64,000 bases of DNA, from the NCBI GenBank assembly GCA_938084055.1, contig CALKDK010000006.1, positions 1 through 64,000 on the forward strand, given 5' to 3'. The stretch's first letter is position 1. Each line of letters opens with the position of its first letter. The DNA is from an uncultured Luminiphilus sp. (GTDB lineage: Bacteria; Pseudomonadota; Gammaproteobacteria; Pseudomonadales; Halieaceae). The notes beneath the pieces are model-generated. The model was not told the DNA's origin. It saw only the letters and a list, made by a program, of their open reading frames with translations, and did no database searches. Position numbers and translations under genes: made by a program. Shown here in pieces: positions 27,861 through 53,288 of this stretch.

Positions 27861-29705
27861 TCATGGATTTGTAGGAACCTCATACCAGATGGGCGAGCTA
27901 TACGCGCGATCCTGAATGAATTCCGGTGCCGCTGCGGGTCGCTCCACGCCAAAGAATGCGGCATCCCGCGTGGTCCAGCGTGGCCGGGGTACCTCGATCA
28001 CCCGGGCATAATAGACGGCATCCGCTGCGGGATCGAATTCGATGTCTGTCCACACCGTGCGCAGCGCTGCAGCGCCGTCCGTTTCCGCCGTACCGGCCAA
28101 TGCGACATCGTAAACCTGCTCCCGGCGCGCACCCGTTCCATCAATCCAGCCCTTGACGACCTGCAGCGCGTGGAGGTCAGGGCCGTCAGGTTCCTTCATG
28201 GCAAGAATGAGAAAACTGGGGGCCATGGGCTCAGCCCCATGACCCACCTGGACCGGCAGTGCCAGGGTTCCCCCCATTGGGACGCCGCGCGCATACCCCA
28301 CGGCAGAAACGGGAACCGCCTGAAGGTCTGTCTCCGTGAAATCCCAGCCGGCAAAAAATCGCAGCTGAATGCGCGAACCTGTAGTGGCATAAACCTCCCT
28401 GCGCTGGAGCGCATCGAAAAGCGCCTGCCGGGTATTTTCTGCGGCCCACACGCCCGTCAGACCGGAAGCACTCAAACGCCAGTTGTCGTTGAGAACCTGG
28501 GCCATCTGGGTGAACATGCGCTCCGCCGAGGGTTCCGTAGAACGGAACTTTCCGAAAAAATTATCCTCCGCCACAGCGCTGTAACCTGTATGTGAGTCGG
28601 TCGCACCGATCATCCCGAAACGATAGGGATTGACGCCCAGGCTGCGTCTGTAGTGCAGCCCCTGCCCCAATGCCGGGCGGGCATACTCCTGGGCAAACAT
28701 CCAGTCTGCCTTGCCCTCAGTGAGGGCAATGTTGCCTTCGTCCCAACGCTCAAAAGCGGCATAGCGATCGTCGGGCGAGAGGATCGGATGCGTCTCCGAG
28801 TCGCCCTTGACCTGGGTCACCTCGAGCAGGGGCTCCCATCGGGCCCTCATCTCGGCATAGGCTGCCCCGATTGGGACACCCGCCAATGTTTCTGGGGCAA
28901 ACATCCGGCCATTACTGACATTGGAATTATGGGGAATGGCCAATATCGAACCCTCGGTCGCGGCCTCGTAGTGCGCCATCGCGGCCCATAAATCCTCGGG
29001 GTCATTACTGTCCTGTGAGGAAAAAGGCACCAACCGGTCTGCGTAGCCCTGCCCCTCCCTGTACAGCACCACTCGATGAAGATTGTCGCCGGATATAGTG
29101 GAGGTCCACTCATAGGCTGGAAACGCCGTGAACAGGTGGGGCTGGTTGTTTCGGTCAGCCGTTGCCACTGCGTCGGCCCAGGCAGCGGTCACAACCGGCG
29201 CTGGCGTCATTTTCTCGGGCGTCGGATTCTGGAATGCATCGGCAAAAGCCATGGTGAGTTCACCCATGCGATCGCTGCGCAGCAGCTCCAACCACTCTGC
29301 AGCCAACGGCCAGTCCGCCAACCGACTATCTTCAGCATCGAGCAGACGATAGACCGAAAGGTACTCTGCATGGTCACTGATGGCGAGAAAGTCCAGCGGG
29401 TAACGGGGACGTACCGGCATGCCGTTGCCCGCTACCACCTGCTCGCCCCGGGCAAAACGATAGGCTGTATCTGGGGTTATCCGGGACCCCATGGTATAGG
29501 CGTCAGCGGAGTTACTGGTATGCAGGTGCAGGTCCCCCCAGTAAAGCTGGGTACGCTGCGGATCGGTATTGGGTGAATAGCTGGTATCCGCATCAAGACC
29601 CACTGACCACAGTGCCACGGCGACCATCAGCACAATACCGAACCGGACGGGTGCTTCGAGACCCGGGGTAGCATCGGATGTTGCCATGCCAGTAACCCGC
29701 ATCAC
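27861..29705 (-). CDS. DUF3604 domain protein (putative secreted metal-dependent hydrolase), copy A
   Basis: N-terminal signal-like helix; LYWGDLHLHTSNSADAYTMGSR, FLAISDHAEYL, GMIGATDSHTGYS. Confidence 0.88.
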   Translation of the reverse strand: MMRVTGMATSDATPGLEAPVRFGIVLMVAVALWSVGLDADTSYSPNTDPQRTQLYWGDLHLHTSNSADAYTMGSRITPDTAYRFARGEQVVAGNGMPVRPRYPLDFLAISDHAEYLSVYRLLDAEDSRLADWPLAAEWLELLRSDRMGELTMAFADAFQNPTPEKMTPAPVVTAAWADAVATADRNNQPHLFTAFPAYEWTSTISGDNLHRVVLYREGQGYADRLVPFSSQDSNDPEDLWAAMAHYEAATEGSILAIPHNSNVSNGRMFAPETLAGVPIGAAYAEMRARWEPLLEVTQVKGDSETHPILSPDDRYAAFERWDEGNIALTEGKADWMFAQEYARPALGQGLHYRRSLGVNPYRFGMIGATDSHTGYSAVAEDNFFGKFRSTEPSAERMFTQMAQVLNDNWRLSASGLTGVWAAENTRQALFDALQRREVYATTGSRIQLRFFAGWDFTETDLQAVPVSAVGYARGVPMGGTLALPVQVGHGAEPMAPSFLILAMKEPDGPDLHALQVVKGWIDGTGARREQVYDVALAGTAETDGAAALRTVWTDIEFDPAADAVYYARVIEVPRPRWTTRDAAFFGVERPAAAPEFIQDRAYSSPIWYEVPTNP

Positions 29706-31066
29706 CCGCAGGGCTCGATCGCTATCCGACGTTCGAGCTCAACATGAAAGTGTCGCAGGCGCTGCTCTTGCTCTCCCCAGAGTTGGCCCTGAAATGCCTT
29801 GCTACGCATACCCTCCTGCACCGAGGGGAGAAACGCAGCATCCTGTCCAAGCACCAGACCCAGGTTGGGATCTTCATCAATGAGATAGGTTTCCGTGGGT
29901 GCCCGGACTGTCCCGGTCACGTCCGTATTGTCCGGCAGGCCCATCCAGCCAGGGGGACAGTAGTTGGGATCATCCACCGGAAACATCAGGGTCATGGTGT
30001 CGTACCAGAATTTCTGGGGGTCAGTATCGTGGGGCAGAAAACGCATCAGGAAGATGGCTTCGGGGTGACACCCGATCTGGACATTGGGGAATATGCCCGT
30101 CGCCCAACTGTCTGATAGCTGCCCGTCGGTAAAACGCTCGTACCCCAGACCGAGTCGCTCCGAGCGGGCGCGCTTACCCTGTTGAATGGCCCTGCGGACA
30201 TCCAGAGCGGAACCAGCGAAAGTATCCGGGTCCACCCCTGCCTCCCGCAGCATGAATTGCAACCCTTCATTGACAGTCTGCTGGTCAGGGATACGTGGGC
30301 TGGGCTCCCCCAATGGAACAATCATTCTGCTGGCTCCCATGGGATACAGATCGTACTGAACGTTCAGGTCTCCCATAACGCCCCGGGTCTCTGGGTGCAC
30401 CGCATGCAGGTGATAGCTTTCATAGAACGCCTCGACGCCAACTTTCCAGTTTGAACCCCACTCACTGCAGACATGGCGAACCACTTTCATGCGGTCAATC
30501 TGATAGTTCTCGAGGTAGCCTTCTGGCAAACCCAACTCTTCGGCAAGGGGGACGGCATCGTCATCCATATTGATAAAAATAAGACCAGCATGAATCTCGC
30601 AGCGCGCCTGCCTCAGGCCGGGCCTGTGTCCGACCACTTCTGGTCTGAAGGTCTCCTCGTCAGTGATGCTGCGCAGGGCGCCGTCCTGGGTAAAACTCCA
30701 GCTATGAAATGGACAGACAAAGACTTTTCTATTGCCGCGCTCCTGGTTGAGCAGGCGTGATCCTCGATGGGGGCACACGTTATAGAACGCACGTATACCC
30801 TCCTTCGTTCTGGATATGATGAAAGATTCGTGGCCTATGCGGAACAGAAAGTAGTCGCCCAGCGCAGGAAGGTCACTGACTACGCCGGCCAGAAGCCAGC
30901 TCCGAGTCCAAACCCGATCCCATTCACGCTGCATGAAACTTGACGAAAAGTAACCGCTTTTGTCATGGATCGCCGTGCCGTTGTCGATTTCAGGCTGCTT
31001 GGCCTCCAGACACTCCGCTGGGGCATCGGGGTTAATTACCGCCACTGGTATCAATTTACTGTTCAC
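29702..31066 (-). CDS. Rieske aromatic-ring-hydroxylating oxygenase, alpha subunit
   Basis: CPHRGSRLLNQERGNRKVFVCPFHSWSF; ESYHLHAVHPET iron site. Confidence 0.93.
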   Translation of the reverse strand: MNSKLIPVAVINPDAPAECLEAKQPEIDNGTAIHDKSGYFSSSFMQREWDRVWTRSWLLAGVVSDLPALGDYFLFRIGHESFIISRTKEGIRAFYNVCPHRGSRLLNQERGNRKVFVCPFHSWSFTQDGALRSITDEETFRPEVVGHRPGLRQARCEIHAGLIFINMDDDAVPLAEELGLPEGYLENYQIDRMKVVRHVCSEWGSNWKVGVEAFYESYHLHAVHPETRGVMGDLNVQYDLYPMGASRMIVPLGEPSPRIPDQQTVNEGLQFMLREAGVDPDTFAGSALDVRRAIQQGKRARSERLGLGYERFTDGQLSDSWATGIFPNVQIGCHPEAIFLMRFLPHDTDPQKFWYDTMTLMFPVDDPNYCPPGWMGLPDNTDVTGTVRAPTETYLIDEDPNLGLVLGQDAAFLPSVQEGMRSKAFQGQLWGEQEQRLRHFHVELERRIAIEPCG

Positions 31067-31473
31067 GGGGATGCCTCTCCTTGCTGCAGTGGACTGGGGC
31101 TGAATACCGGCAACCTGCCGGCGGCGCCCACAGGCTGAAATGTCAGGACGACCGGCGTACCAATTTGCACCTGCTCGGGGTCAGGACCAACGATATGGGT
31201 CATCATCCGAACACCTTCATCGAGTTCCACCAGTGCCACTACGTAGGGGGCAATAAAATCTGCCGATACGCCCCTGCGCACCACTGTAAAACTCACCACC
31301 ACTCCCCCACCCCGGGACTCCGTCCAATCCAGCCGGTCTCCGGCGCAGTGACTGCAGGTGATACGTGGATAAAACTGACAGCGTTGGCAATCGAGACATT
31401 GCTGGATCAACAAGCGCCCGGCGTCTATGCCCTCGGCGTAAGCCTGGTTTACCTGATCGGTGCCACCCATCAA
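31063..31473 (-). CDS. DUF35 / OB-fold Zn-ribbon protein
   Basis: LIQQCLDCQRCQFYPRITCSHCAGDRLDW. Confidence 0.9.
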   Translation of the reverse strand: MMGGTDQVNQAYAEGIDAGRLLIQQCLDCQRCQFYPRITCSHCAGDRLDWTESRGGGVVVSFTVVRRGVSADFIAPYVVALVELDEGVRMMTHIVGPDPEQVQIGTPVVLTFQPVGAAGRLPVFSPSPLQQGEASP

Positions 31474-31476
31474 AAA

Positions 31477-32646
31477 CTACCCCCGGTCCCCGCGACCCAA
31501 AATCAGCGTCGCGTGACTTGACATGATGCCACCCTGTGCATGGAGCAGGGTGTGTTCCAAACGGTCCAGTTGGCGATCTCCCGCTGTGCCGCGATATTGA
31601 CGTATGGCCTCGGTAAGACCAAACATCGCACCGGGATTACCGGGGTGGCAGTGGGACAGCATGCCACCGTGGGTATTCACCGGTAGCTGCCCACCGGGTC
31701 GGGTCGCACCACTGGCCAATAAGGCCCCGGCTTCCCCTTTGTCGCAAAACCCCAGATCTTCAAGTTGAATGAGTAGCGCCGGTGAAAAACAATCATAGAG
31801 CTGCGCCAAATCCACCTCCCCCACCCCAATTCCCGCCTGGGCCAGCGCGGCCTTTCCTGAATCGACCGCCGCGGACGTCGTCAGGCTCGATGCCTGGCTG
31901 ATGTGTTCATAATGATGGCCTTCGCCGTACCCCCTGACCATAACGGGTGGGTGCGGGAGGTGATGCGCGCGGTCCAGGCTGGTGAGCACCACAGCTGCTC
32001 CCCCATCTGACACGATTGAGCAGTCCAGCAGCTTCAGGGGATCGGCGATTGGCTTTGAATTGAGGACGTCATCGACGCTCACAGGCTCGCGGTACTGGGC
32101 GGTTGGATTGAGCGATGCCCAGGCCCGGGAAGATACCATTGCCTCGGCGAAGTCCGCCTCGGTAGTGCCGTAAGTCGCCATATGAGCCCTCGCTATCAGG
32201 GCGTAGTAAGCGGGTACGGTTGGCCCGTAAGGCTGCTCATAGATGGGATGCCCAGAGCTGGACTGCACCATCATCGCCCGATCACGGGTCATGAAACTGC
32301 GCATACTGTCCGCCATGGCCACGACAACCGTGTGCGCCAGCCCGGTCTGGATCGCTGCTGCGGCGTAGCGCAATGCGGTGAAGGTAGTCCCGCCGCCGGT
32401 ACCGACGCTCAGGCAATGTCCGGGTGTCAGGCCCGCATATTCCGCCGTGGCCTCCGCGTGATACATGACCGGGACGACCAACGAGTTACAGGTAATCAGG
32501 CCGTCCACGTCGCCGGGCTTGAGGCCGGCATCTGCGATGGCGCCCAGCGTGGCCTCGACGCCAAGAGCCATGGGCCCTCGATCCGTGACAACACCCAGCG
32601 TCGTCTCATAGCTGCCAACGATGGCAATATCAGACAGCGCCCGCAT
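31477..32646 (-). CDS. thiolase-like (lipid-transfer protein/Ltp-type), nucleophile Cys apparently replaced
   Basis: MRALSDIAIVGSYETTLG; LSVGTGGGTTFTALRYAAAAI; VNTHGGMLSHCHPGNPGAMFGLTEAIRQYRG. Confidence 0.88.
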   Translation of the reverse strand: MRALSDIAIVGSYETTLGVVTDRGPMALGVEATLGAIADAGLKPGDVDGLITCNSLVVPVMYHAEATAEYAGLTPGHCLSVGTGGGTTFTALRYAAAAIQTGLAHTVVVAMADSMRSFMTRDRAMMVQSSSGHPIYEQPYGPTVPAYYALIARAHMATYGTTEADFAEAMVSSRAWASLNPTAQYREPVSVDDVLNSKPIADPLKLLDCSIVSDGGAAVVLTSLDRAHHLPHPPVMVRGYGEGHHYEHISQASSLTTSAAVDSGKAALAQAGIGVGEVDLAQLYDCFSPALLIQLEDLGFCDKGEAGALLASGATRPGGQLPVNTHGGMLSHCHPGNPGAMFGLTEAIRQYRGTAGDRQLDRLEHTLLHAQGGIMSSHATLILGRGDRG

Positions 32647-33063
32647 CTAACGGGCGCCCCGATGTAATCGAACACCGACGGTGCCGGGAGCTACTGCATC
32701 TCCCTGCTCATTCAGTATCGAGACGTCCAGCATCACCTCGCCTGTTTCGGCATCGTAGGCAGTGATGACTGCGGTCGCCGTCAGCGTATCGCCGACGTAG
32801 GTGGCGCCACGGTTGGAGTAGGCGATCGACGTGATAACGCCGGCATCGCCAAGCCATTCATCAACCACCTGATGGAGCCAATCACCCAGCATTGGCCCGG
32901 CGAGCACCAGAGCCGGATAGCCTTCGATTTCCGTCGCGTAGGGGAGATCAAAATGAATGCGGTGGCCATTCCACAGGGCGGCGTTGTAGAGCATCAACTG
33001 GACGGTGTCGGGTTTGTGTTGACGCTCCGGTAGCACGGCGCCTGCGGCGGGTGCAGGATTCAT
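32647..33063 (-). CDS. MaoC-like / hotdog dehydratase, C-terminal type
   Basis: LMLYNAALWNGHRIHFDLPYATEIEGYPALVLAGPM. Confidence 0.85.
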   Translation of the reverse strand: MNPAPAAGAVLPERQHKPDTVQLMLYNAALWNGHRIHFDLPYATEIEGYPALVLAGPMLGDWLHQVVDEWLGDAGVITSIAYSNRGATYVGDTLTATAVITAYDAETGEVMLDVSILNEQGDAVAPGTVGVRLHRGAR

Positions 33064-33515
33064 CGCAGGATCCTTGTGGTTTTCTCGCGAAGGACAAGAT
33101 CTCCCTGATCATCCCGGATTTCCATCTCAACTTCATAAAAAATCAGGGGACCGGAGCGACCGGCCTTTTCATAGATGGCTGTGAGGGTACGCACTGCGGT
33201 CAACCAATCTCCCGGGTGGATGGGTTTCAGGTACTGGATATCGAGACCACCCGCCATCGCCCGCTCCAATGGGAACTTGGGCAACAACGTATCAATCGAT
33301 ACGCCATCGGGACTGAGCTGATCAAGCGCCACCACATCCCAGAACAGGGGCACATGAAACATCGGCGGCGCCACATCACCGTCCAGATATTTTTGCTGCC
33401 TGCTCCCGGTGGCAACGGCATACTTCCGTATATCCCGCCGCGTGACGATTTCCCTCTGGGGTCTACTTTGGCGGCCCACATTGGCCAACAGTTGCTCCGA
33501 TATCAAGCTGGTCAA
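33060..33515 (-). CDS. MaoC_dehydrat_N-like hotdog protein
   Basis: IVTRRDIRKYAVATGS...YLKPIHPGDWLTAVRTL; overlaps partner hotdog gene by 4 nt. Confidence 0.8.
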   Translation of the reverse strand: MTSLISEQLLANVGRQSRPQREIVTRRDIRKYAVATGSRQQKYLDGDVAPPMFHVPLFWDVVALDQLSPDGVSIDTLLPKFPLERAMAGGLDIQYLKPIHPGDWLTAVRTLTAIYEKAGRSGPLIFYEVEMEIRDDQGDLVLREKTTRILR

Positions 33516-35068
33516 ACCTTGCTTCCCTCACCCTGCCAATAGGGATCGCGCAACGCTCGCTTGAGAATTTTCCCCGTTGGGGCCTTGGGTAAAGCCGCTA
33601 CAAAATCAACGCTTTTGGGCTTTTGGTAGGAGGCGAGGTGCTGGCTGGCGACATGGATAATATCCTCCGCTGTGGCAACCTCGCCGGGCTTCAGCACCAC
33701 AACCGCTTTAACGGCCTCGCCCCAGGTATCATCCGGTATCCCAAATACCGCTGACTCGAGCACCGCAGGGTGGTTATGGATAGCCGCCTCCACCTGCGTG
33801 CTGTAGATATTTTCTCCTCCGGAAATAATCATATCCTTCGCCCGGTCGACGATAAAAATGTAACCATCTCCGTCCCAGACCGCGATATCTCCGGTCCACA
33901 GCCAGCCATCGCGCAGCGTGTCGGCCGTGAGTTCAGGACGTCGCCAGTAGCCCACCATATTGGCCTCGGAGCGCACGATGATTTCACCCGGCGTTTGCCC
34001 ATCCCGGGGCACCTGCTGGCCATCGGCATTGACCACCTGAACCTCAGTAACGAAGCCGGGACGGCCACAGGAACTCAACCGCTCGGGATGACTACCTGCC
34101 AGGGCGTTATCGTGATCCTCCTGGGACAGAAAGGTCATGGTCATACCTTCGGTCTGCCCGTAACCCTGAATAAGCGTACAGGGAAAAGCTTTCATCGCCG
34201 CCGCCACAACGGAACGCGGCATGGGTCCCCCGCCGTACTGAAAATTGCGCAAACTGCTCAGATCGTAGTCGTCAAATCCGTCCACTGCCATCATCCAGTT
34301 AATCATGGTAGTGATCCCCAGGAACGCTGAAACTCGTTCCCTCTGGATAACCTCTAGGGCCAATTTCGCGTCAAAGTTGATCAGGACAACGGGACAACCG
34401 TGGGCCATATAATTCATGGCCAGTGCCACTGGTATGTGGAACATCTGGCCCGTCAACATGTAGACGTCGGTGGGGACAATTCGCTCAGCCACGGTCTGGT
34501 TAATCATTCCCATGTAGAGCGAATGGTGGGTGTGAAGGGCTCCCTTGGAAAGACCCGTGGTGCCGCCGGTGTAGAGGATCAATGCCGGATCATCCCCGGT
34601 GACCGTGAACGCCGACTCGGGCTCCTCCGGTGAAGCTGCGGCGATCAGTCGCTCGTAGTCATCCATTGGGTCGTCCGCGAAAACAAGCCACTCCCGGATC
34701 TGGATCCTGCCGCGCAGTCGCTCCGCAAGGTCGCGATATTCTGCAGAGACCACAATAACTTCTGGCGCCCCATCCTCAAGAAGCCGGAGGAGTTCTTCCT
34801 CACTCAGGCGCCAATTTAGCGGGAGGGCGATAAGCCCACAGCGGGCAACACCATAGAAGACTTCCATGTACTGGATGCAGTTCTTGGACAGGATGGCAAC
34901 GCGGTCGCCCTTCTGGAGCGCCAGATCATCGCGAAGCGCATTGGCGAGACGCCGGACCCGATCGTCGAGCTCGCCGTAGCTGATCCGTCTGTCATTGGGA
35001 ACATCGACCAGGGCCTCACGCCCGGAGTCAAGGCTGGCAGTCTTGGCAGGAATTCGTCCGAGGTTCAT
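33512..35068 (-). CDS. AMP-dependent acyl-CoA synthetase/ligase
   Basis: ILYTGGTTGLSKGALHTH, YGQTEG, WLWTGDIAVWDGDGYIFIVDRAKDMIISGGENIY, PKAPTGKILKRALR. Confidence 0.95.
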   Translation of the reverse strand: MNLGRIPAKTASLDSGREALVDVPNDRRISYGELDDRVRRLANALRDDLALQKGDRVAILSKNCIQYMEVFYGVARCGLIALPLNWRLSEEELLRLLEDGAPEVIVVSAEYRDLAERLRGRIQIREWLVFADDPMDDYERLIAAASPEEPESAFTVTGDDPALILYTGGTTGLSKGALHTHHSLYMGMINQTVAERIVPTDVYMLTGQMFHIPVALAMNYMAHGCPVVLINFDAKLALEVIQRERVSAFLGITTMINWMMAVDGFDDYDLSSLRNFQYGGGPMPRSVVAAAMKAFPCTLIQGYGQTEGMTMTFLSQEDHDNALAGSHPERLSSCGRPGFVTEVQVVNADGQQVPRDGQTPGEIIVRSEANMVGYWRRPELTADTLRDGWLWTGDIAVWDGDGYIFIVDRAKDMIISGGENIYSTQVEAAIHNHPAVLESAVFGIPDDTWGEAVKAVVVLKPGEVATAEDIIHVASQHLASYQKPKSVDFVAALPKAPTGKILKRALRDPYWQGEGSKV

Positions 35069-35077
35069 GCCGACCCC

Positions 35078-35506
35078 CTAATAGGCACTGTCCAGATCCA
35101 CATGCCGCCGGGCAATGCACCAACTCGGCCCCTCTCGCCGCACCACATCCCGATAGACTCCGGTCGTTAGCAAGCGCGTCTCGCCATCCTCTGTGGCAAA
35201 CAGGGTCAGGTTGGATACGACATCGACGGCGCCCTCAGATACAGCGACATCAGAGGGCGAAAACAGGTGGTTGGATACCACATGGCGACGAACATCGTTT
35301 TGCGATGCCATCGAATCACGGTAGAGCTGCATAATACTATCCCGTCCCTCGAAGGGCCCCACAAGTTCGCCTCCGGCAATCCGCAGGCTCACGACCGCAT
35401 CGTCGCAGAGACAGGATTCCAGCATTTTGAGGTCACGTTCGTCGTAACCGTAGGATGCGCGTGAAAGCAACTCGGCAATGGCAGATTTATCGTCGGCAGA
35501 CAGCAT
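35078..35506 (-). CDS. SnoaL/NTF2-like protein
   Basis: IAELLSRASYGYDERDLKMLESCLCDDAVVSL. Confidence 0.8.
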   Translation of the reverse strand: MLSADDKSAIAELLSRASYGYDERDLKMLESCLCDDAVVSLRIAGGELVGPFEGRDSIMQLYRDSMASQNDVRRHVVSNHLFSPSDVAVSEGAVDVVSNLTLFATEDGETRLLTTGVYRDVVRREGPSWCIARRHVDLDSAY

Positions 35507-35734
35507 GTAGTGGTCCTCCAGTTTGGGGGTGGATGGCTGAAAAGCCTTGCTCCCGGTATCGCCAAGCCGTGTACAAACAGGCCACAGACACCGGGGCCGA
35601 GGGGGTAGGCTTACGCAAGCAATTCAGCGCTCCGTTGCGTTGTATTGCGGTGGCCGTGGTCGGGGTGCAACCGGACGCAGCTAGCGCGCGGAACCCATGG
35701 TTCCAAGCCACGCCCAAGCCGCGCGCGCCCGCAT

Positions 35735-35751
35735 TGAACCGAATCGGTTCA
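35735..35751. repeat. inverted repeat TGAACCG-AAT-CGGTTCA
   Basis: Perfect 7-bp arms, 3-nt spacer, in the long gap upstream of the minus-strand operon starting at 35506. Confidence 0.6.
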
Positions 35752-37823: not shown

Positions 37824-37828
37824 GCCAA

Positions 37829-38845
37829 TCAGTCCAGCACGACCAAACACTTGCCCCGTGACGCCCCGTGCATCATGTCACAGAACGCCTGAGGGGTTTG
37901 CTCTATACCCGTATACTGTTGATCAAATGTCTTGAGCGTCCCGTCGCGCAGCGCCGACTCCAGTGTCGCCATAACCGCTGGAAACTCATCGACATAATCG
38001 GAGAACATAAAGCCCTCCATACGGGCACGTTTGGTGATCAACTCCCAGGTGTGAGCGATGGGTTCTACCTCACTTTCGTACTGGGAAATAGCGCCGCAGA
38101 GCACCAGGCGCGCGCCTTCGGACAACTGCTGCATAACCGTGTTCAGTACGCCACCCCCGACATTGTCAAAAAACAAATCGATGCCGGAGGGGGCGGCTTC
38201 GGCAAGCGCTGCGGCCAGGTCGGGCTGCGCCTCACGGGATATGGCAACATCGTAGCCCACCTCATCCGTAAGCCACTGCGCCTTGGCAGACGAGCTTACC
38301 AGCCCAATGGTTCGACAGCCCGCGGCTTTGGCAAGCTGCCCGACAATCGTTCCAACGGCCCCGCCCGCGGCGCTGACCACAAGCACGTCTCCGTTTCGGG
38401 GTTTACCGATTCGGAATAGGCCCAGCCACGCGGTCATGCCGGTAGGTCCCAGGGTCGACATGTAGTCCTGCAGGGGGATGTCCTGTGCACACTGCAGGGG
38501 GGCACAGAGGTCAGATCCATCCAGCAGGCTCATTTCTTCCCAGGCCGTCCTCGCGTTGACCAGCGTGCCGACCGGGTAGTCAGGGTGCAGCGACTCCACC
38601 ACCTCCCCCAGCACAATGCTTTGGACCGGCTCGTCCAGGGGCATGCCCGTCAAATAGTTGTCACCAGCACCCTCTGACATCCACTGCCTGAATCCGGCGT
38701 CCAGGGAAAACACTCGGTTGCGAATAAGAAACCAACCGTCCTGTACCTCAGGACGCGGCACCTCCACCACTGCAAAATCCTCCGGTGCAATCGCCCCTTG
38801 GGGGTATCTGGCCAAATTAACCGCTCGAGGCATGTCGTTCTCCAT
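37829..38845 (-). CDS. zinc-independent MDR NADP-dependent oxidoreductase (CurA/LTB4DH-like)
   Basis: VLVVSAAGGAVGTIVGQLAKAAGCRTIGL; IDLFFDNVGGGVLNTVMQQL. Confidence 0.9.
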   Translation of the reverse strand: MENDMPRAVNLARYPQGAIAPEDFAVVEVPRPEVQDGWFLIRNRVFSLDAGFRQWMSEGAGDNYLTGMPLDEPVQSIVLGEVVESLHPDYPVGTLVNARTAWEEMSLLDGSDLCAPLQCAQDIPLQDYMSTLGPTGMTAWLGLFRIGKPRNGDVLVVSAAGGAVGTIVGQLAKAAGCRTIGLVSSSAKAQWLTDEVGYDVAISREAQPDLAAALAEAAPSGIDLFFDNVGGGVLNTVMQQLSEGARLVLCGAISQYESEVEPIAHTWELITKRARMEGFMFSDYVDEFPAVMATLESALRDGTLKTFDQQYTGIEQTPQAFCDMMHGASRGKCLVVLD

Positions 38846-41013: not shown

Positions 41014-42024
41014 GTGGAAACCATTACCAAACAGCAATGGACATTAAAGAAGCGCCCACTAGGCATCCCTGACCGCAGTGAAATCGATATAGAAAGCCGC
41101 ACAATTGATGATCTGCCGGCAGATCACCTGCTCATTGAGTGCCTGTACTTTTCCCTGGACCCGGCCATTCGTGGCTGGATGTCTGATGTGCCCAGTTACC
41201 TTCCTCCCATTCCGATTGGCGACCCAGTCCGCTCAACGGTCGTCGGACGGGTATTACACAGTGCCGCCGAAGGTTTCAGCACCGGAGACATGGTGGTGGG
41301 TATGGGCGCCTGGGAAACCTGTGGTGTTGTTCCCGCAGCGTATTTTACGGTAATTCCATCCGACAGCCCGTTTCCGCCTCACTACTATTTAAGCGTTCTC
41401 GGTGCCGTAGGACTAACCCCCTACTTTGGCCTGATCAGCGCCGGAAAAGCAGCGGCCGGGCAGACCTTGCTGATGAGCGCCGCGGCGGGTGCCGTTGGTT
41501 CAATTGGGGGCCAGATCGGAAAGATTCTGGGCCAGCGGGTCGTCGGCCTTGCCGGGACGGATGAAAAGTGTCGCTGGGTGACCGAAGAACTGGGCTTCGA
41601 TGGCTGCATCAATTACAAAACCTGCGGCGACATGGAGGAAGCCATACGGTCAGCGTGCCCAGAAGGCGTTGATCTGTTCTTTGATAACGTCGGGGGCGAC
41701 ACGCTGGACGCTGCGCTGATGAATCTCAACAAGGACGCCACCGTTGTATTTTGTGGCAGCATCAGCAGTTACAACGCGACGGAACCGACCCCGGGCCCCT
41801 ACAACTGGTGGCAGGTCCTGGCACGGAGCGTCACGGTACAGGGTTACCTGATCAGTGATTATGTGCCGCAGTTTCCGGAAGGCCAGGCACAGATGGCCGA
41901 GTGGTTGAAGGCGGGTAAGCTGCAATTCAAGGAGCACATCGTGGATGGATTTGAGAACTGCCTGGACGCCTACAACCTGCTGTTCGAGGGAAAAAATACT
42001 GGCAAGTTAATGGTTAAAGTTTGA
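41014..42024 (+). CDS. MDR NADP-dependent oxidoreductase (CurA/LTB4DH-like), paralog of 37829..38845
   Basis: LMSAAAGAVGSIGGQIGKILGQRVVGLAGTDEKC; VDLFFDNVGGDTLDAALMNL. Confidence 0.92.
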   Translation: METITKQQWTLKKRPLGIPDRSEIDIESRTIDDLPADHLLIECLYFSLDPAIRGWMSDVPSYLPPIPIGDPVRSTVVGRVLHSAAEGFSTGDMVVGMGAWETCGVVPAAYFTVIPSDSPFPPHYYLSVLGAVGLTPYFGLISAGKAAAGQTLLMSAAAGAVGSIGGQIGKILGQRVVGLAGTDEKCRWVTEELGFDGCINYKTCGDMEEAIRSACPEGVDLFFDNVGGDTLDAALMNLNKDATVVFCGSISSYNATEPTPGPYNWWQVLARSVTVQGYLISDYVPQFPEGQAQMAEWLKAGKLQFKEHIVDGFENCLDAYNLLFEGKNTGKLMVKV

Positions 42025-44720: not shown

Positions 44721-44749
44721 CTATTTGACCATGACGACCGACCTACGCC

Positions 44750-45523: not shown

Positions 45524-45565
45524 CTCCGTTGTAGTTACTGTGCGAATTAAGGTATCCGGCAGATA

Positions 45566-46384
45566 TCAAGGTGCTGGAATCTCCCCTGCCCTGATCATTG
45601 CCTCCTCCAATTCGTGGGCTCGCGGATTTCTGCGCAGGCAGAGGCCACCGTTGACCTGAAGGTTTTCTCCCGTCATGAAGCAGTCATCGCTGGCAAGAAA
45701 CAGCGCGGCGGCAGCGATATCATCGGAGGTTCCGTACCGTCCCAGCGGATAGCAATCACTAAACGCCTTCCCCAGGGCTGCACTCTGTAGGGCCTCAGCT
45801 GTCATGGGGGTGTCAGTCAACCCGGGGGAAATGCTGTTGGCGCGGATCCCATGGCAGCCAAACTCATTGGCAACCGTCCTGATAACGTGATCAATCCCGG
45901 CCTTGGTTCCCATATAGGCCGCGTGATTATCGAGCATTATTTTCGCGGTCGCGGAGGAGATCTGGATGATGGCGCCACGCTCCTGGTGTGACATGACGTC
46001 AACCAACCGTTGCAGCCAAATAAACGGGCCCTTGAATTGGAGATCGACCATGCGGTCCAACTCCGCCTCCGTCGTCTCGCAAAACCCTGTAAGGAGGCCC
46101 CAACCTGTAGCGTTGATAGCAACATCAATAGCGCCGTGCCGGTTCCGTATTTCATCAACCATATGCGTGATGGATGATCGGTCACAAAAATCGCAGGCCA
46201 CCCAGTCCCCGTCAATTGCATGGGCCAGGTCCGCCAGGACATCTGTGCGTCGACCCGATACGACTACCTTAGCGCCCGCCTCAGCAAACCGTCGAGCCAT
46301 GACCTGCCCCATATTACCCGGAGACCCCGCACCCACTATGGACACGACCTTTCCCGCGCCCGAAAACCCTCCGAACATAGTCAC
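45566..46384 (-). CDS. SDR family oxidoreductase
   Basis: SIVGAGSPGNMGQVMARRFAEAGAKVVVSGR; YMGTKAGIDHVIRTVANE. Confidence 0.9.
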   Translation of the reverse strand: MTMFGGFSGAGKVVSIVGAGSPGNMGQVMARRFAEAGAKVVVSGRRTDVLADLAHAIDGDWVACDFCDRSSITHMVDEIRNRHGAIDVAINATGWGLLTGFCETTEAELDRMVDLQFKGPFIWLQRLVDVMSHQERGAIIQISSATAKIMLDNHAAYMGTKAGIDHVIRTVANEFGCHGIRANSISPGLTDTPMTAEALQSAALGKAFSDCYPLGRYGTSDDIAAAALFLASDDCFMTGENLQVNGGLCLRRNPRAHELEEAMIRAGEIPAP

Positions 46385-46421
46385 CCCGTACCGTTGCAGT
46401 TATTCGTATTGGAACTCAAAA

Positions 46422-46450
46422 AAAATACAGCATGTTTTTTTGCTCAACAA
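46422..46450 (-). promoter_or_regulatory. candidate promoter TTGTTG-17-TATTTT (minus), degenerate member of the TGyTTGyT -35 group
   Basis: -35 46445-46450, spacer 46428-46444, -10 46422-46427; preceded by ATGC as in the 43.4 kb site. Confidence 0.45.
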
Positions 46451-46478
46451 GCATACGAAGGCGCGCATCGAACGTGCG

Positions 46479-47195
46479 CTACGCCTCCAGTTTATAGATT
46501 TCAACAAGTTGGTCTGTTACCAGATCTATGATGTGTTCCGCCCGTTTTTTTCTATTGCTGGAGCGGTATGTGGTCGCCATGCCATGCATCACAAAATGCA
46601 CCAGGTCATGGGCAGCCTGAAAAGACCTCACCGACCGCCATTGGGGAAACACAGTTTTTGCAGTGCGCAGGAACTGTTTCTCAAACTCTTTTTCGGATGC
46701 GTCTATGACCTCACCGAGTTCCTCATCGGTTCGAGCGGCGGACTGCAGCTCCTGGTATGCCACAAAACTGGGCAGGTTGTGATAAGTCCATGCCGCCTCA
46801 ACCGAACGGCGGATATCTTCACGGGTAATCTGCTCCGGAATGTCATTCTCCGCCATGAGTTGCCGATACTCTTCGAGTCGTTGCTGGTGAAGGTGCGCAA
46901 TCACCGCTTTCATGACCTCAGCCCGGGCGGAAAAATGATGCATCATGGCCCCTCTGGAGACGCCCGCCTCCGCGGCAATCATTGCGGTGGTGGTCTTGGT
47001 ATAACCCTCCCGGACAAAACAACGAACGGCGCCCTCAAGAATAGCCTTGCGCGTCAGCGCACTTTTTTCTGCCTGCCAGCCGTCACTGGAGCGCGCACCA
47101 TTGGCCCCCGCCCTGATTTTTTTTGACGGTGCCTTTCCCTTTGCTCCCCCACGTTTGGCAGACGCACCAACCTGGCTTCGAGTGGTTTCAGTCAT
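46479..47195 (-). CDS. TetR family transcriptional regulator
   Basis: AILEGAVRCFVREGYTKTTTAMIAAEAGVSRGAMMHHFSARAEVMKAVIAHL; long basic N-terminal extension. Confidence 0.93.
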   Translation of the reverse strand: MTETTRSQVGASAKRGGAKGKAPSKKIRAGANGARSSDGWQAEKSALTRKAILEGAVRCFVREGYTKTTTAMIAAEAGVSRGAMMHHFSARAEVMKAVIAHLHQQRLEEYRQLMAENDIPEQITREDIRRSVEAAWTYHNLPSFVAYQELQSAARTDEELGEVIDASEKEFEKQFLRTAKTVFPQWRSVRSFQAAHDLVHFVMHGMATTYRSSNRKKRAEHIIDLVTDQLVEIYKLEA

Positions 47196-47285
47196 AGTTT
47201 TTGAGGGATCCTAGCTATGGTGGCATAGTCAACGCGCCCAGAATCCTACAAAGTGCAGGCAAACGCAATCAGAGGGAGAACAGAC

Positions 47286-47327
47286 CAAACAAACCTGCTT
47301 GCTTTTTTTTAGAGCGGTTCCTAGTAT
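47286..47327 (+). promoter_or_regulatory. candidate promoter TTGCTT-17-TAGTAT with 19-mer CAAACAAACCTGCTTGCTT (site B)
   Basis: -35 47299-47304, -10 47322-47327; in the TetR/DUF35 divergent gap. Confidence 0.65.
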
Positions 47328-47537
47328 CGGACCGTGCTGGAGAAAACATGCACAAAGCACGCGAGTCTGCGCAGCCGCCGACTCAGCTCAGCAAAGTGCT
47401 GTTGAGCACCCGGTCGAGAGTGGGGCAGCCCGGAACAACCGTGCTGCCCTCATGAGTCAAGGTGCATGTTACTGTGATTCAGGCACGTTGGGTGCGATCA
47501 CCCTTTCGACCGTCACAGGCAACCAGGGGAAAATAAA

Positions 47538-47969
47538 ATGGCGAGCCAACATCCTCTCCAACCCGGTCTGTTCAGCTGGCCGAGCGAAGACCCGGAGCTG
47601 CTGGGCAGCCGCTGTATGGATTGTGGTGAACACGCCTTTCCGAGCCAGGACAGCTGTCGCGCATGCAGCAGTGAGCAAACCGAAATCGTAGGCCTTGGCC
47701 GTTCCGGACGGTTGTGGACGTGGACCATACAGAGTTTTATGCCGAAATCCCCTTACCTGACCTACGAAACAGCGGAAACCTTCCACCCTTATGGCGTCGG
47801 TTATGTCGAGCTTCCCTGTGGATTAAAAGTTGAAAGCAGATTGCGGGAGAACAGTCCTGAGACCTTGGCAATAGGTCTCGACATGGATCTGGAAATAGTG
47901 CCCGTGCGCAGTGATGATGATGGGAGACAGCTCATGACGTTTCAATTTCACGCCGCGGTGTCGCCATGA
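47538..47969 (+). CDS. DUF35 / OB-fold Zn-ribbon protein
   Basis: LLGSRCMDCGEHAFPSQDSCRACSSEQTEIVGLGRSGRLWTWTI. Confidence 0.9.
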   Translation: MASQHPLQPGLFSWPSEDPELLGSRCMDCGEHAFPSQDSCRACSSEQTEIVGLGRSGRLWTWTIQSFMPKSPYLTYETAETFHPYGVGYVELPCGLKVESRLRENSPETLAIGLDMDLEIVPVRSDDDGRQLMTFQFHAAVSP

Positions 47970-49111
47970 CAGATGTTGCAATAGTCGGACTGGGTATCCA
48001 CCCCTTTGGCCGCAGTCCAAGTCTCACTGGATTGGAGCAGGGTGCCCTTGCCGCTCGCGCTGCACTGGTGGATGCCGGCACTGATTTTAAAGCCATGCAA
48101 TTTGCTTTTGGCGGCAGCCAGGATGGGGGTAACGCTGATTCACTGGTAAATCTACTGGGATTGACCGGCCTGCAGTTCACCAATATCTGGAACGGTTGTG
48201 CCACAGGAGGCAGTTCGTTAAATGCCGCCTATTCGGCTATTAAGTCGGGACAGTACGATACGGGCCTCGTGGTGGGTTTTGACAAGCACGCCCGGGGAGC
48301 GTTTAACCCCCAACCCCGGGACTGGGGGTTGGACGACTGGTATGGCGAGACAGGCCTCATGCTGACGACTCAGTACTTTGCCATGAAAATACAGCGCTAC
48401 ATGCACGACCATGGGATATCACGTGACACCCTGATCCGTGTCGCGGAGAAGGCTTTTCGCAATGGCTCGATAACCCCCACGGCCTGGCGCCAGACGGCAC
48501 TCAGCAGGGATGAGATTGAGCAGGCGCCCATGGTGAGTGAACCCCTCAATAAATACATGTTCTGCTCGCCTGCGGAGGGTGGCTGCGCACTGGTTCTGTG
48601 CCGTGCCGACAAGGCCCACCAGTTCACCAGCAAGCCCGTGCTGCTGAAAAGTGCTGTGGTTCGGTCCCGACACTATGGGAGCTTTGAAGTCTTCAGTCCG
48701 TCACAGGCACCCACCGTGGCCCCCTCCCCCACCGTGACCGCATCCAGGGCCGCCTTTGAATTTGCAGGCATTGGCCCGGAGGATGTCCAGGTTGCGCAGC
48801 TACAGGACACTGAGGTTGGCGCAGAAATAATGCACATGGCTGAAAATGGATTTTGTCGTCATGGCGAACAGGAGCGCTGGCTGCGCGAGGGCATGACGGA
48901 GATTCAGGGCAAATTACCGGTCAATACAGATGGGGGCTGCCTGGCCAACGGAGAACCCGTTGGCGCCTCTGGCCTACGGCAGGTTTTTGAAATCTGCCAT
49001 CAACTGCGCGGCACGGCCGGCGCCCGTCAGGTACCCAATGCCCCCAAGGTGGGCTATACCCACGTGTACGGTGCTCCTGGCATCAGCGGCGTCAACATTC
49101 TGGCAACCTAA
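47966..49111 (+). CDS. thiolase-like (Ltp-type) protein, Cys retained, GHP motif altered to GEP
   Basis: IWNGCATGGSSLNAAYSAI; VNTDGGCLANGEPVGASGLRQVFEICHQLRG; overlaps DUF35 gene by 4 nt. Confidence 0.9.
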   Translation: MTDVAIVGLGIHPFGRSPSLTGLEQGALAARAALVDAGTDFKAMQFAFGGSQDGGNADSLVNLLGLTGLQFTNIWNGCATGGSSLNAAYSAIKSGQYDTGLVVGFDKHARGAFNPQPRDWGLDDWYGETGLMLTTQYFAMKIQRYMHDHGISRDTLIRVAEKAFRNGSITPTAWRQTALSRDEIEQAPMVSEPLNKYMFCSPAEGGCALVLCRADKAHQFTSKPVLLKSAVVRSRHYGSFEVFSPSQAPTVAPSPTVTASRAAFEFAGIGPEDVQVAQLQDTEVGAEIMHMAENGFCRHGEQERWLREGMTEIQGKLPVNTDGGCLANGEPVGASGLRQVFEICHQLRGTAGARQVPNAPKVGYTHVYGAPGISGVNILAT

Positions 49112-49146
49112 CAAGTCAAACAGCATTTGAGTTTCTGGAGGGCAAA

Positions 49147-50529
49147 TTGAATAAGGCAGAAGATAAGAAACAGGGTGACGGAGGCCGCTTCAAGGGCACG
49201 ACCTTTCAAGATCTATTGGACCTGGAAAACGTCGAGGTCCCAGAATTTCTGCGAATGAAAAGTAATCCACACCTCGGAGACGAAGACCTCTCGGTGGCTC
49301 GCTACATCGATCAGGAATTCTTTGATCGTGAGAAATCCCATATGTGGTCCAGGGTCTGGCAGATGGTCTGTCGGGAGGAGGATATCGCTGAACCCGGTGA
49401 CCACCACGTTTACAACATTATCGACAGCAGTGTGATTGTTACACGCACGCCATCGGGCACGATCAAGGGATTCATTAACAGCTGCCTGCACCGCGGTCGG
49501 TGCCTGCGGGACGAGTCGGGCACCGTAAATGAATTCCGGTGCCCCTTCCATGGGGCCACCTGGAATCTCGACGGTGAATTCCAGGGCATTCCCTGCCAGT
49601 GGGATTTCGAGCATCTTGAAGACCGGGATATGTCGCTACCGGAGGTGCAGACGGGAACCTGGGGTGGCTTCGTCTTCATCAACTTTGATCCCAACTGCCC
49701 GTCGCTTGAAAGTTACATGGAAATCATGCCTGACCACTTTTCACGCTACCCCCTGGAAAACTACTTTAAGGGCGTGCACGTGCAGCGCGTGATGAACTGC
49801 AATTGGAAGGTGGGGGCCGAAGCATTTATGGAGTCCTGGCACACGGTCGAAACCCACAAGCAAATTCTTACTTTTACAGGGGACGAGAATTCCCAATACG
49901 ACACGTTTGGCGACAATGTCAGCCGTTCGGTAACGCCGATGGCCGTTCATAGTCCGCATCTGGACAGTATTTCAGACGAAGCCATCATCCGTGACATTCT
50001 GAAATTATCCGGTCGTATGGCGCTGGATAGCGATGAGGGTGTTGAGATGCCCAACGGTATTTCAGCGCGGCGCTACGTGGCGGACATGAATCGGGAGATG
50101 TTCGAGGAAGCCTCTGGACAGGACCTCTCTGACGCCACCATGGCCGAGTTAGAGGACGCCATTCTCTACAGTCTGTTCCCCAACTTCCAGGTATGGATTG
50201 GTTACAACGGCAATATTGTCTACCGCTTTCTACCCAATGGTAATGATCCCCACAGCTGTATCTTTGACATTATGATCCTCCTGCGCTACCCGGAGGGCTC
50301 AGAACGCCCTGATCCGGCGACTTGCATTGTGCTTCCGGTGGAAGAACCTTTTTCTTCTGTTCCTGAACTCGGCGCACTTGGCCCGGTCTTTGACCAGGAC
50401 GATGCGAACCTGCCGGCGGTGCAGCGCGGCATGAGAGCGTCACGAAAAGGTGCAGTAAGCCTCGCCAGTTACCAGGAAAGTCGCATTCGCCACCTTCACG
50501 CCACCCTCGATAAATACCTCAGTGGTTGA
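49147..50529 (+). CDS. Rieske aromatic-ring-hydroxylating oxygenase, alpha subunit
   Basis: CLHRGRCLRDESGTVNEFRCPFHGATWNLDG; ESWHTVETHKQ. Confidence 0.93.
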   Translation: MNKAEDKKQGDGGRFKGTTFQDLLDLENVEVPEFLRMKSNPHLGDEDLSVARYIDQEFFDREKSHMWSRVWQMVCREEDIAEPGDHHVYNIIDSSVIVTRTPSGTIKGFINSCLHRGRCLRDESGTVNEFRCPFHGATWNLDGEFQGIPCQWDFEHLEDRDMSLPEVQTGTWGGFVFINFDPNCPSLESYMEIMPDHFSRYPLENYFKGVHVQRVMNCNWKVGAEAFMESWHTVETHKQILTFTGDENSQYDTFGDNVSRSVTPMAVHSPHLDSISDEAIIRDILKLSGRMALDSDEGVEMPNGISARRYVADMNREMFEEASGQDLSDATMAELEDAILYSLFPNFQVWIGYNGNIVYRFLPNGNDPHSCIFDIMILLRYPEGSERPDPATCIVLPVEEPFSSVPELGALGPVFDQDDANLPAVQRGMRASRKGAVSLASYQESRIRHLHATLDKYLSG

Positions 50530-50539
50530 GGAGTTCGAA

Positions 50540-51349
50540 ATGAAAGAAGCCCGGACAGCCGGTCGTATTAACGGCATTCTTGTCGCCAGCGGCGCCTGGC
50601 ATGATATTGATTTTGCACGTCTGGAACTGCTGAAATTGCTCGCAGAATTCGATCGGGTGCGTATCCGTGTTTTTGAGGATTACGAAAATCTTGAGGCCCT
50701 CGCGGAAGCTGATTTTCTGGTCAGTTACACCTGCAATGTGGTTCCCTCGCTCGCCGCCCAGGAGGGGCTGCGAGACTGGGTCGCTGAAGGCGGTCGCTGG
50801 TATGCGCTGCACGGCACCAATTCGATTATTCGCCTCATGTCAGACGGTATATTTGAAACCCCGGACTGGGCACCCCTGTTTGCAGACACGCTGGGCTCCA
50901 TGTTTCGCTCTCACCCGCCCATCGAGCCCTACGCCGTCACCGTCGCGGATCCTGACCACCCGCTGGTGGCGGGTCTCGATGCATTTGAGGCCACCGATGA
51001 GCTGTATCTGATGCATACCCATGGTGATCTTAAAGTGCTTCTTGAGACTGAGTTTGGGGGCGACGCACCGGGATTCAGAGAGGATCAATGGCCTGACGGA
51101 AAACATCCCGTGTTCTACATCAAGGAACAGGGCAAAGGCGCCGTGCTGTACCTGACCCTGGGGCACTGTCGTCACCATTACGATATGCAGCCGCTCATGG
51201 ATTATTGGCCCAATATCGAGCGCTGCGCATGGGACACACCACAATTTTACGAGCTGTTAAGGCGAGGATTGGCCTGGGCCATGGAGCCGGTTGAGGCAAC
51301 CAGCCTCGCCGCTGCCGCTGCAGCACGCGCCAATGCGCCCACGCTCTAG
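50540..51349 (+). CDS. ThuA-like (glutamine-amidotransferase-fold) protein
   Basis: AWHDIDFARLELLKLLAE...ADFLVSYTCN...LRDWVAEGGRWYALHG...PVFYIKEQGKGAVLYLTLGHCRHHYD. Confidence 0.75.
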   Translation: MKEARTAGRINGILVASGAWHDIDFARLELLKLLAEFDRVRIRVFEDYENLEALAEADFLVSYTCNVVPSLAAQEGLRDWVAEGGRWYALHGTNSIIRLMSDGIFETPDWAPLFADTLGSMFRSHPPIEPYAVTVADPDHPLVAGLDAFEATDELYLMHTHGDLKVLLETEFGGDAPGFREDQWPDGKHPVFYIKEQGKGAVLYLTLGHCRHHYDMQPLMDYWPNIERCAWDTPQFYELLRRGLAWAMEPVEATSLAAAAAARANAPTL

Positions 51350-53288
51350 GCGAGACTCGGTGCGCCCGGCCCTGAAAAAACCCCGTGGCGTTGGTCTGTG
51401 GCTGCGGCTGCTGTTGCCCCCCTTCATGTTTGGCAACCTGCTGGTTACTCAGGCTGCAGCCGCTGGCTCATCCGTCCAGCAGGGCAGTAATGCCCTTGCG
51501 TCAGGTACCTACTCCCCTGTAGTAGCGCATGATGAGCGACAGTTGCTCTGGGGAGACACCCACCTGCACTCCAATGTCTCCGCCGATGCATTCACCCTCG
51601 GCTCACGCATGGGACCCGCACAGGCCTACCGCTTTGCGATGGGTTTGCAGGTGACTAACGAGGTGGGACAGACCGCCAGGCTGCGGACCCCATTGGACTT
51701 TCTCGCGCTGACGGACCACGCCGAGTACCACGGTGTATTTCCACTGCTGGAAAATCGAAATTCCGAATTGGATGGCTGGCCGCTGGGTCAGCAAATGGCC
51801 GACCTGCTGCAGGCCGACAAAAACATTGAGTTGGCCAAGTTATTTTCCGATGCAATCCAAAGCACAGATCCTGCACTTCGAACCCCCGGGCCGCTGGTTG
51901 AAAGTGCCTGGCACGCCAGCATTGATGCCGCTGAGGCTGCCTATACTCCCGGTGTCTTTACGACCTTGATCGGGTACGAATGGACCTCAATGGTGACCGG
52001 TGACAACTTACATCGGGTGGTCCTTTTTCGTGATGGCCCCGAACGAACGCAGCAGGTCATTCCTTTTTCTGCCCAGGACAGCACGGATCCGGAAGCCCTC
52101 TGGTCAGCATTGTCAGACTACGAGACAGGTACCGGTGGGCGGGTCATGGCCATTCCACACAACGGCAACCTGAGTAATGGACGCATGTTCAGCCCACAGC
52201 GAAACGACGGCCAATCCCTCGATGCCAACTACGCAATGCAACGACGCTACTGGGAACCCCTCTATGAGATGACGCAGGTCAAGGGCGATGCCGAGACCCA
52301 CCCACGCCTGTCCCCAGAGGATCCTTTTGCCGACTTTGAAACATGGGATGACGGTAACATTACGCTCACCACCCCCAAGCAAGAGCAGATGCTAGCTTAT
52401 GAGTATGCGCGCTCAGCACTGGGGTTGGGCCTGGCCCACCGGGAAGACCTTGGGGTTAATCCATTCGACTTTGGTGTCATTGGCTCCAGCGACATCCACA
52501 CGGCACTGTCCACCGTGGAGGAGGATAATTACTTCGGAAAATTCCTCCATGACGGACCCGCGCCGGGTCGCACTGAACTGAAAATGGCGGGGCAGCTACA
52601 ACAAATCTGGCGCATGGTGTCCTCGGGATTGGCTGCGGTCTGGGCGACGGAGAACACCCGGGAGGCGATTTTTGATGCCATGGTACGACGCGAGGTCTAC
52701 GCCACCACCGGTAGTCGTATCCGGGTACGGGTATTCGGTGGCTGGGACTTCGATGGGAATGTCCTGAGTGCGTCAAATTGGGCCGAGTTAGGCTACGCCA
52801 ACGGCGCGCCTATGGGGGGTTACCTGACACCGCCACCGTTGGCAGGTGCCGCACCAACCCTCATGATCAAGGCGCAAAAAGATCCCGATTCTGCCCACCT
52901 TGACCGACTGCAGGTCATCAAGGGCTGGCTGGACAAGACGGGCAAGAACCATGAAAAAGTCTATGATGTCACTGCCTCAGCTGGACGCGCCCGGGATCCA
53001 CATTCTGGCCTCTATGAACCCGTTCAGGACACCACCGACCTGAGTCAAGCCACCTACAGTAATCGCTTTGGCTCTGCCCTCCTTGAAGGTGTCTGGCGAG
53101 ATCCTGATTTCGATGCTTCACAGGCAGCCTTTTACTACGTCAGGGTGCTTGAGATTCCGACACCGCGCTGGACAACCTACGACGCCGTGCGCTTTGGTGA
53201 ACAGCGGGCCGCTGGCGATGTCGGCAAACTGCAGGAACGCGCGTACACCTCGGCCATCTGGTATTACCCCCACGAAAATAATCCCTGA
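51333..53288 (+). CDS. DUF3604 domain protein (putative secreted metal-dependent hydrolase), copy B
   Basis: Signal-like N-term; LLWGDTHLHSNVSADAFTLGSRMG, FLALTDHAEYH, GVIGSSDIHTALS. Confidence 0.88.
   Translation: MRPRSRRDSVRPALKKPRGVGLWLRLLLPPFMFGNLLVTQAAAAGSSVQQGSNALASGTYSPVVAHDERQLLWGDTHLHSNVSADAFTLGSRMGPAQAYRFAMGLQVTNEVGQTARLRTPLDFLALTDHAEYHGVFPLLENRNSELDGWPLGQQMADLLQADKNIELAKLFSDAIQSTDPALRTPGPLVESAWHASIDAAEAAYTPGVFTTLIGYEWTSMVTGDNLHRVVLFRDGPERTQQVIPFSAQDSTDPEALWSALSDYETGTGGRVMAIPHNGNLSNGRMFSPQRNDGQSLDANYAMQRRYWEPLYEMTQVKGDAETHPRLSPEDPFADFETWDDGNITLTTPKQEQMLAYEYARSALGLGLAHREDLGVNPFDFGVIGSSDIHTALSTVEEDNYFGKFLHDGPAPGRTELKMAGQLQQIWRMVSSGLAAVWATENTREAIFDAMVRREVYATTGSRIRVRVFGGWDFDGNVLSASNWAELGYANGAPMGGYLTPPPLAGAAPTLMIKAQKDPDSAHLDRLQVIKGWLDKTGKNHEKVYDVTASAGRARDPHSGLYEPVQDTTDLSQATYSNRFGSALLEGVWRDPDFDASQAAFYYVRVLEIPTPRWTTYDAVRFGEQRAAGDVGKLQERAYTSAIWYYPHENNP

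Follow-up and report, generated by a model that had tools for sequence, protein, structure and literature searches.

Two distinct Rieske oxygenase operons of Luminiphilus each carry a predicted exported PHP-fold protein of the DUF3604 family

The window analysed here comprises 64,000 nt of an uncultured Luminiphilus sp. (Halieaceae; assembly GCA_938084055.1, contig CALKDK010000006.1, positions 1 to 64,000) and contains two operons in which genes for a DUF35 protein, a thiolase-like protein and a Rieske oxygenase alpha subunit are found together with a gene of the DUF3604 family (Table 1). Operon A spans 35506 to 27861 on the minus strand, its adjacent genes overlapping by 4 nt or being separated by gaps of at most 9 nt, and operon B spans 47538 to 53288 on the plus strand. 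A previous reading, made from the DNA letters alone (the sequence-only reading), had named these families and quoted the DUF3604 motifs LxWGDxHLHxxxSADAxTxGSR and DHAEY; all genes were recovered in place, and both motifs are exact in the sequence. The co-directional run of operon A continues past the end given there, with a pair of GST genes followed by an SDR gene, to 25352. The second MaoC-like protein of operon A gave no Pfam match above the cut-off. For DUF3604-B, the probable start is the ATG at 51333, within the 3' end of the ThuA gene. The region may be regarded as a catabolic island in which each operon pairs a Rieske oxygenase with a C–C lyase of the DUF35/thiolase superfamily type. 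Our best explanation overall, with a joint probability of roughly 0.5, is that an exported, probably phosphoester-cleaving PHP enzyme was attached in one lineage to these two distinct oxygenase/C–C-lyase operons.

Table 1. Genes of operons A and B and of their immediate surroundings (positions in the window).
Feature	Position	Strand	Basis and remarks
SnoaL_4 protein, candidate small (beta) subunit of Rieske oxygenase, operon A	35078-35506	-	Pfam SnoaL_4 9.5e-17, Ring_hydroxyl_B 1.4e-6
Acyl-CoA ligase, operon A	33512-35068	-	AMP-binding 2.7e-79
MaoC-like hydratase subunit, operon A	33060-33515	-	FAS1_DH_region 2.1e-16; conserved in A-type operons
Second short MaoC-like (hot-dog) subunit, weakly recognised, operon A	32647-33063	-	Conserved partner in A-type operons
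Thiolase-superfamily protein, Sal/SLP-type retro-aldolase active site (YDCF, Gly at nucleophile position), operon A	31477-32646	-	Thiolase_C_1 2e-58
DUF35 (ChsH2 C-terminal domain type), aldolase partner, operon A	31063-31473	-	OB_ChsH2_C 5.9e-21, zf-ChsH2 3.4e-10
Rieske oxygenase alpha subunit, operon A	29702-31066	-	Ring_hydroxyl_A 3.8e-21, Rieske 6.2e-15
DUF3604-A, predicted exported PHP-fold metallohydrolase	27861-29705	-	PF12228 1.5e-203; 4-nt overlap with Rieske gene
GST-family gene, operon A tail	27119-27964	-	Same order in HTCC2080
Second GST-family gene, operon A tail	26192-27115	-	Same order in HTCC2080
SDR, operon A tail	25352-26173	-	Same order in HTCC2080
DUF35, operon B	47538-47969	+	OB_ChsH2_C 8.7e-10; BbsA-like 2.2e-15
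Thiolase-like protein, atypical active site (NGC, QDTE, GEP), operon B	47966-49111	+	Thiolase_C_1 7.9e-31
Rieske oxygenase alpha subunit, operon B	49147-50529	+	Ring_hydroxyl_A 4.9e-18, Rieske 7.3e-14
ThuA-family protein, operon B	50522-51349	+	ThuA 1.9e-20
DUF3604-B, predicted exported PHP-fold metallohydrolase	51333-53288	+	PF12228 4.2e-233; listed open reading frame from 51291
TetR-family regulator, divergent from operon B	46479-47195	-	TetR_N 1e-13; TetR gene near many B-type operons

Because sequence search gave no solved relative of DUF3604, structures were compared instead. The AlphaFold2 model of mature DUF3604-B (595 residues; mean predicted local distance difference test score, pLDDT, of 94.5) has a beta-rich C-terminal part, and its top PDB match in Foldseek was 3e38, a PHP-like phosphoesterase (E 5.3e-6, probability 1.00). 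Among solved structures, 3e38 is also the one nearest to the known diesterases of the PHP type, Sb-PDE and No-PDE, and the diesterase ligands modelled on it are H61, H63 and D260; H203 and H142; E135; and D68, H93 and H262 (PMC11656708). Assigned by motif order, the DUF3604 equivalents are H91, H93 and D401; H290 and H241; E230; and D99, H143 and H403 (numbering of the full-length B open reading frame), and all nine are conserved at 0.99 or above in 128 proteins. Hydrophobic leaders were found in 70 of 75 DUF3604 proteins, versus 0/45 for DUF35, 1/138 for Rieske and 0/19 for ThuA proteins; in the ThuA protein of operon B, no signal peptide was found. Sb-PDE carries a cleaved signal peptide (PMC5460133). 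DUF3604 resembles the secreted phosphodiesterases and 3e38 in predicted fold, in the nine ligands and in its leader. It differs from them in that the sequence searches run detect no relatedness, and it is about 180 residues longer than mature Sb-PDE (595 versus 413). By predicted fold and predicted export, DUF3604 appears to be an exported enzyme of the PHP fold, its site predicted to bind three metals; hydrolysis of phosphoesters, as a phosphomono- or diesterase, would be its most likely activity. The sequence-only reading had placed a DUF3604 hydrolase outside the cytoplasm and the Rieske and CoA enzymes inside; the predicted fold speaks for a hydrolase, and the leader counts, as predictors of export, support the separation.

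Between the two operons, the DUF3604 proteins are 49% identical, the Rieske proteins 30%, the thiolase-like proteins 29% and the DUF35 proteins 24%. In reverse searches, each Rieske protein led to its own set of orthologous cores, found across further genera and families of the order. The A core consists of SnoaL, CoA ligase, two MaoC-like proteins, thiolase-like protein, DUF35 and Rieske oxygenase, and in other genera is often followed by genes for a TonB receptor, GST and a pyrroloquinoline quinone (PQQ) dehydrogenase. At the position that DUF3604 occupies in Luminiphilus, four loci of other genera (L198-L201) have, behind the A-type Rieske gene, either the TonB receptor gene or, with nothing in between, the GST gene. 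The B core consists of DUF35, thiolase-like protein and Rieske oxygenase, often with a TetR gene close by. Outside Luminiphilus, nearly all A and B cores are without DUF3604. By comparison of orthologues, the A and B cores are two different conserved modules, usually lacking DUF3604, and their gene order differs because they are two old modules and not one rearranged duplicate. The operon B Rieske protein, used as query for related loci, matched records of Luminiphilus and Halieaceae with identities of 73-93%. Strain HTCC2080 (L178, L179) shows the same arrangement as the window, and in a genome of the same genus (G282, with the gene order of HTCC2080 contig AAVV01000007.1) both operons lie about 18 kb apart. 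The cultured strain L. syltensis NOR5-1B possesses operon B together with its DUF3604 gene. Two Halieaceae genomes (L227, L228) have B operons that lack ThuA as well as DUF3604, and in G318 (L180) ThuA is present and the adjacent DUF3604 is not.

The linkage was followed in 57 Luminiphilus genomes, where all DUF3604 figures refer to the matches listed. Orthologues of Rieske-A and Rieske-B occur in 27 and 24 of these genomes, respectively. DUF3604-A was found in six and adjoins Rieske-A in all six (6/6); DUF3604-B adjoins Rieske-B in eight, and the contig is cut in one more. Among the 18 genomes with both Rieske genes, five carry both DUF3604 copies, one the B copy only, none the A copy only and 11-12 neither. 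The B copy is thus present in 5/5 genomes that have the A copy, and the two copies co-occur with a Fisher p of 0.0007-0.002, uncorrected for relatedness. In the source genome itself (2.92 Mb assembly, 83% complete; 7 DUF3604, 10 Rieske-alpha and 4 DUF35 genes), two DUF3604-DUF35 pairs lie within 10 kb of each other; since about 0.2 would be expected from the gene counts, this exceeds chance. In another family, a B-like run of DUF35, thiolase and Rieske genes has DUF3604 on its upstream side (G008 and L119, also L254, and G114 contig 72 as judged from positions), and in G003 and G048 about 8 kb separate DUF3604 from an A-type Rieske gene.

In the tree of fetched DUF3604 proteins, DUF3604-A and -B group together, and the linked copies make up two clades, one of 12 (support 100) and one of 4 (99), both within a set of 20 rows (97); in the tree of 128 rows they fall within one set of 19. 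When loci fetched via DUF3604 itself were counted, linked rows made up 5/8 in that set and 0/~105 elsewhere (rows, not events). The branch of DUF3604-A is longer than those of the B copies (0.98 versus about 0.2-0.5), which suggests that DUF3604-A may have changed faster after joining operon A. On the sequence evidence, DUF3604 is a lineage-specific add-on to the operons and not a core part. In Luminiphilus, both operons would have received a copy from one subclade, with duplication inside the family as the most likely origin. A conserved DUF35-thiolase-Rieske-DUF3604 module, as claimed from the sequence alone, is therefore borne out in part: one DUF3604 subclade is linked to Rieske clusters and its A and B copies co-occur, but DUF3604 does not belong to a single conserved module, as both cores are separate and usually occur without it.

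Operon A is closest to the steroid side-chain aldolase systems Sal-Shy of Comamonas testosteroni and Ltp2-ChsH2(DUF35), the latter with the MaoC hydratase ChsH1/ChsH2 (igr operon type). It shares with them two MaoC-type proteins, a YDCF thiolase-superfamily protein without the nucleophilic Cys, and a DUF35 partner. Unlike in these systems, DUF35 is a stand-alone protein, the Rieske oxygenase and CoA ligase are encoded in the same operon, and a ChsE-type dehydrogenase pair is absent from it. The YDCF motif is present in the A thiolase-like protein and in all 8 aligned A-type orthologues, the nucleophilic Cys of thiolases is replaced by Gly, GGG(T), in A-type rows, and the gene of the zinc-ribbon DUF35 partner (zf-ChsH2, OB_ChsH2_C) adjoins. 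The best solved relatives are 4u4e and the lipid-transfer protein 6ok1. In CtSal, Tyr302 and Cys304 of YDCY catalyse retro-aldol cleavage, and Gly occupies the nucleophile position (PMC12329534); the hydratase-plus-aldolase logic has been shown genetically in C. testosteroni (PMC12502768). Operon A fits this logic, as MaoC-like genes and DUF35 stand beside an aldolase-type protein. It would act as a steroid side-chain unit, in which the ligase would form the CoA thioester, the MaoC-type proteins would hydrate it, and the DUF35-bound thiolase-like protein would cleave the resulting beta-hydroxyacyl-CoA by retro-aldol chemistry. Halieaceae isolates degrade steroids (PMC5790920), and a steroid-like substrate is therefore plausible, no more; for the operons we infer a steroid- or terpenoid-like substrate.

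Operon B would use a related but differently built lyase. Its thiolase-like orthologues keep the Cys of NGC, and QDTE or QDTD as well as GEP are invariant. The aldolase motif YD[HC][FY] was not found in any B-type row, QDTE or QDTD standing there instead, and B lacks the catalytic GHP histidine and the HDCF-type motif of SCP2-type or BbsB-type thiolases, having GEP and QDTE. Despite its NGC Cys, the protein thus fails both the aldolase and the thiolase motif test. Benzoylsuccinyl-CoA thiolase BbsA/BbsB is likewise a DUF35-thiolase pair: BbsB (7pxp) is the solved structure nearest to the B thiolase-like protein, and BbsA is the closest NCBIfam match of the B DUF35, scoring well under the cut-offs of the family. 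The B protein has QDTE and GEP at the places where LHDA and GHP of BbsB align. This site, invariant and yet atypical, hints at a CoA-dependent variant of C–C cleavage that may so far be undescribed.

Gene content, conserved cores, the tree and the ligand set can be read from the sequences; the shared biochemical role is our inference. In it, DUF3604 would act beyond the cytoplasm and trim a conjugated substrate, which would then be taken up and oxidised inside the cell. Several points weigh against this interpretation. Most Luminiphilus Rieske genes have no adjacent DUF3604 (6/27 for A and 8/24 for B have one; some contigs of metagenome-assembled genomes end early), and the linked rows represent just about three or four lineages, many having been fetched through a Rieske query. 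The match to 3e38 is partial (template modelling score 0.31/0.49), the ligand mapping rests on the order of motifs and not on measured distances, and no PHP Pfam model was found for DUF3604 at E up to 10. PDB sequence searches with DUF3604 matched no chain, PHP or other, and yielded no solved structure; in the open literature searched, a known activity of any member was not found. Furthermore, DUF3604 is not enriched order-wide in the vicinity of Rieske or DUF35 genes. This test covered 28 DUF3604-bearing genomes of the order with 103 DUF35, 96 Rieske and at least 144 DUF3604 matches; pairs within 10 kb were counted by eye from position lists, and the expectation was derived from whole-genome gene density. 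Among the matches listed, 3 DUF35 and 4 Rieske pairs were seen, versus 3.7 and 3.3 expected. The sequence-only reading had named a lack of such enrichment in related genomes as refuting its module, and observed and expected numbers were about equal, so that by its own test the claim fails at the order level; a general DUF3604-Rieske association was rejected at that level on these counts.

The missing enrichment favours a possible, though somewhat unlikely, alternative in which DUF3604 is a general secreted hydrolase whose many paralogues are mobile and might, for instance, scavenge phosphorus; it would have reached the operons by hitch-hiking, without a role in the pathways. Luminiphilus genomes hold 1-13 candidate copies each among the matches listed, the family occurs in 41 of the 146 genomes sampled in the order with very varied neighbourhoods, both cores function elsewhere without it, and a recurrent cassette with PpiC and HupE/UreJ, unrelated to Rieske pathways, is found on rhizobial plasmids too. 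Against hitch-hiking, DUF3604 tightly overlaps its upstream gene in both operons, the linked copies belong to one subclade, and the A and B copies occur together in the same genomes. It would be very surprising if the two operons were duplicates of one ancestral four-gene module, rearranged later. The same four families do occur twice within 26 kb and the DUF3604 copies are 49% identical, but the partner proteins are just 24-30% identical, the active-site motifs of the two thiolase-like proteins differ, and each core has its own orthologues and gene order in other families, mostly without DUF3604; segmental duplication was rejected on the partner identities and the separate orthologous cores.

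The bond cleaved might also be another one: with the PHP fold, DUF3604 would serve both pathways by hydrolysing a conjugated substrate at a carboxylic ester, sulfate or amide bond. The membership of the PHP domain in the amidohydrolase superfamily (PMC5460133) would allow this, as would the much greater length and beta-rich C-terminal part of DUF3604 compared with Sb-PDE, but we consider it distinctly improbable, as the activities of PHP enzymes in PMC5460133 and PMC11656708 are on phosphoesters. The attachment of an exported phosphoesterase to two distinct operons can also be extended to a more specific proposal, which is doubtful: the subclade would consist of secreted phosphodiesterases of the PHP fold, by which a phosphate-conjugated marine lipid, steroid- or terpenoid-like in kind, would be released. 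A duplicated copy would be wired to each oxygenase/C–C-lyase operon, and the unmasking step outside the cell would thereby be co-transcribed with the side-chain cleavage inside it; operon B would contribute a new C–C lyase active site (QDTE/GEP, with the Cys retained).

The DUF3604 family is large and heavily multiplied; the open literature searched mentions it once, and its confidently predicted fold and complete ligand set make it testable as an enzyme family. The operon links provide one subclade with a candidate metabolic context in marine bacteria, where an external cutting step may feed both pathways, which probably degrade a bulky carbon compound. Searches for Luminiphilus together with Rieske found no paper, and those for HTCC2080 together with catabolism gave unrelated papers only.

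A PpiC-type rotamase and a HupE/UreJ protein are commoner partners of DUF3604 than Rieske or DUF35, and both are encoded within 3 kb in 17 of 128 members. They stand beside DUF3604 in four of the five rhizobial or roseobacterial plasmid loci inspected (L278, L279, L281 and L282); in these five loci, Rieske, DUF35 and thiolase genes were not found. The cassettes of Gammaproteobacteria and of Rhizobiaceae plasmids contain the same family, the best 40 plasmid records being 46-50% identical to the B copy. The fetched Luminiphilus operons differ from the cassettes in having no HupE, and PpiC follows just in L. syltensis (L222). PpiC with HupE/UreJ looks like the more general DUF3604 cassette, and a dedicated foldase and a metal-permease-like protein would fit an exported metalloenzyme. 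Gammaproteobacterial loci with PpiC and HupE/UreJ include L058, L064, L065, L076, L096, L105, L118, L122 and L126.

The genes at 36609-63371 include those for a cytochrome P450, curcumin-reductase-like MDR proteins, and further Rieske proteins, SDRs and acyl-CoA dehydrogenases. The P450 gene (36609-37850) lies between the operons, and curcumin-reductase-like MDR genes adjoin at 37829-38845 and 41014-42024.

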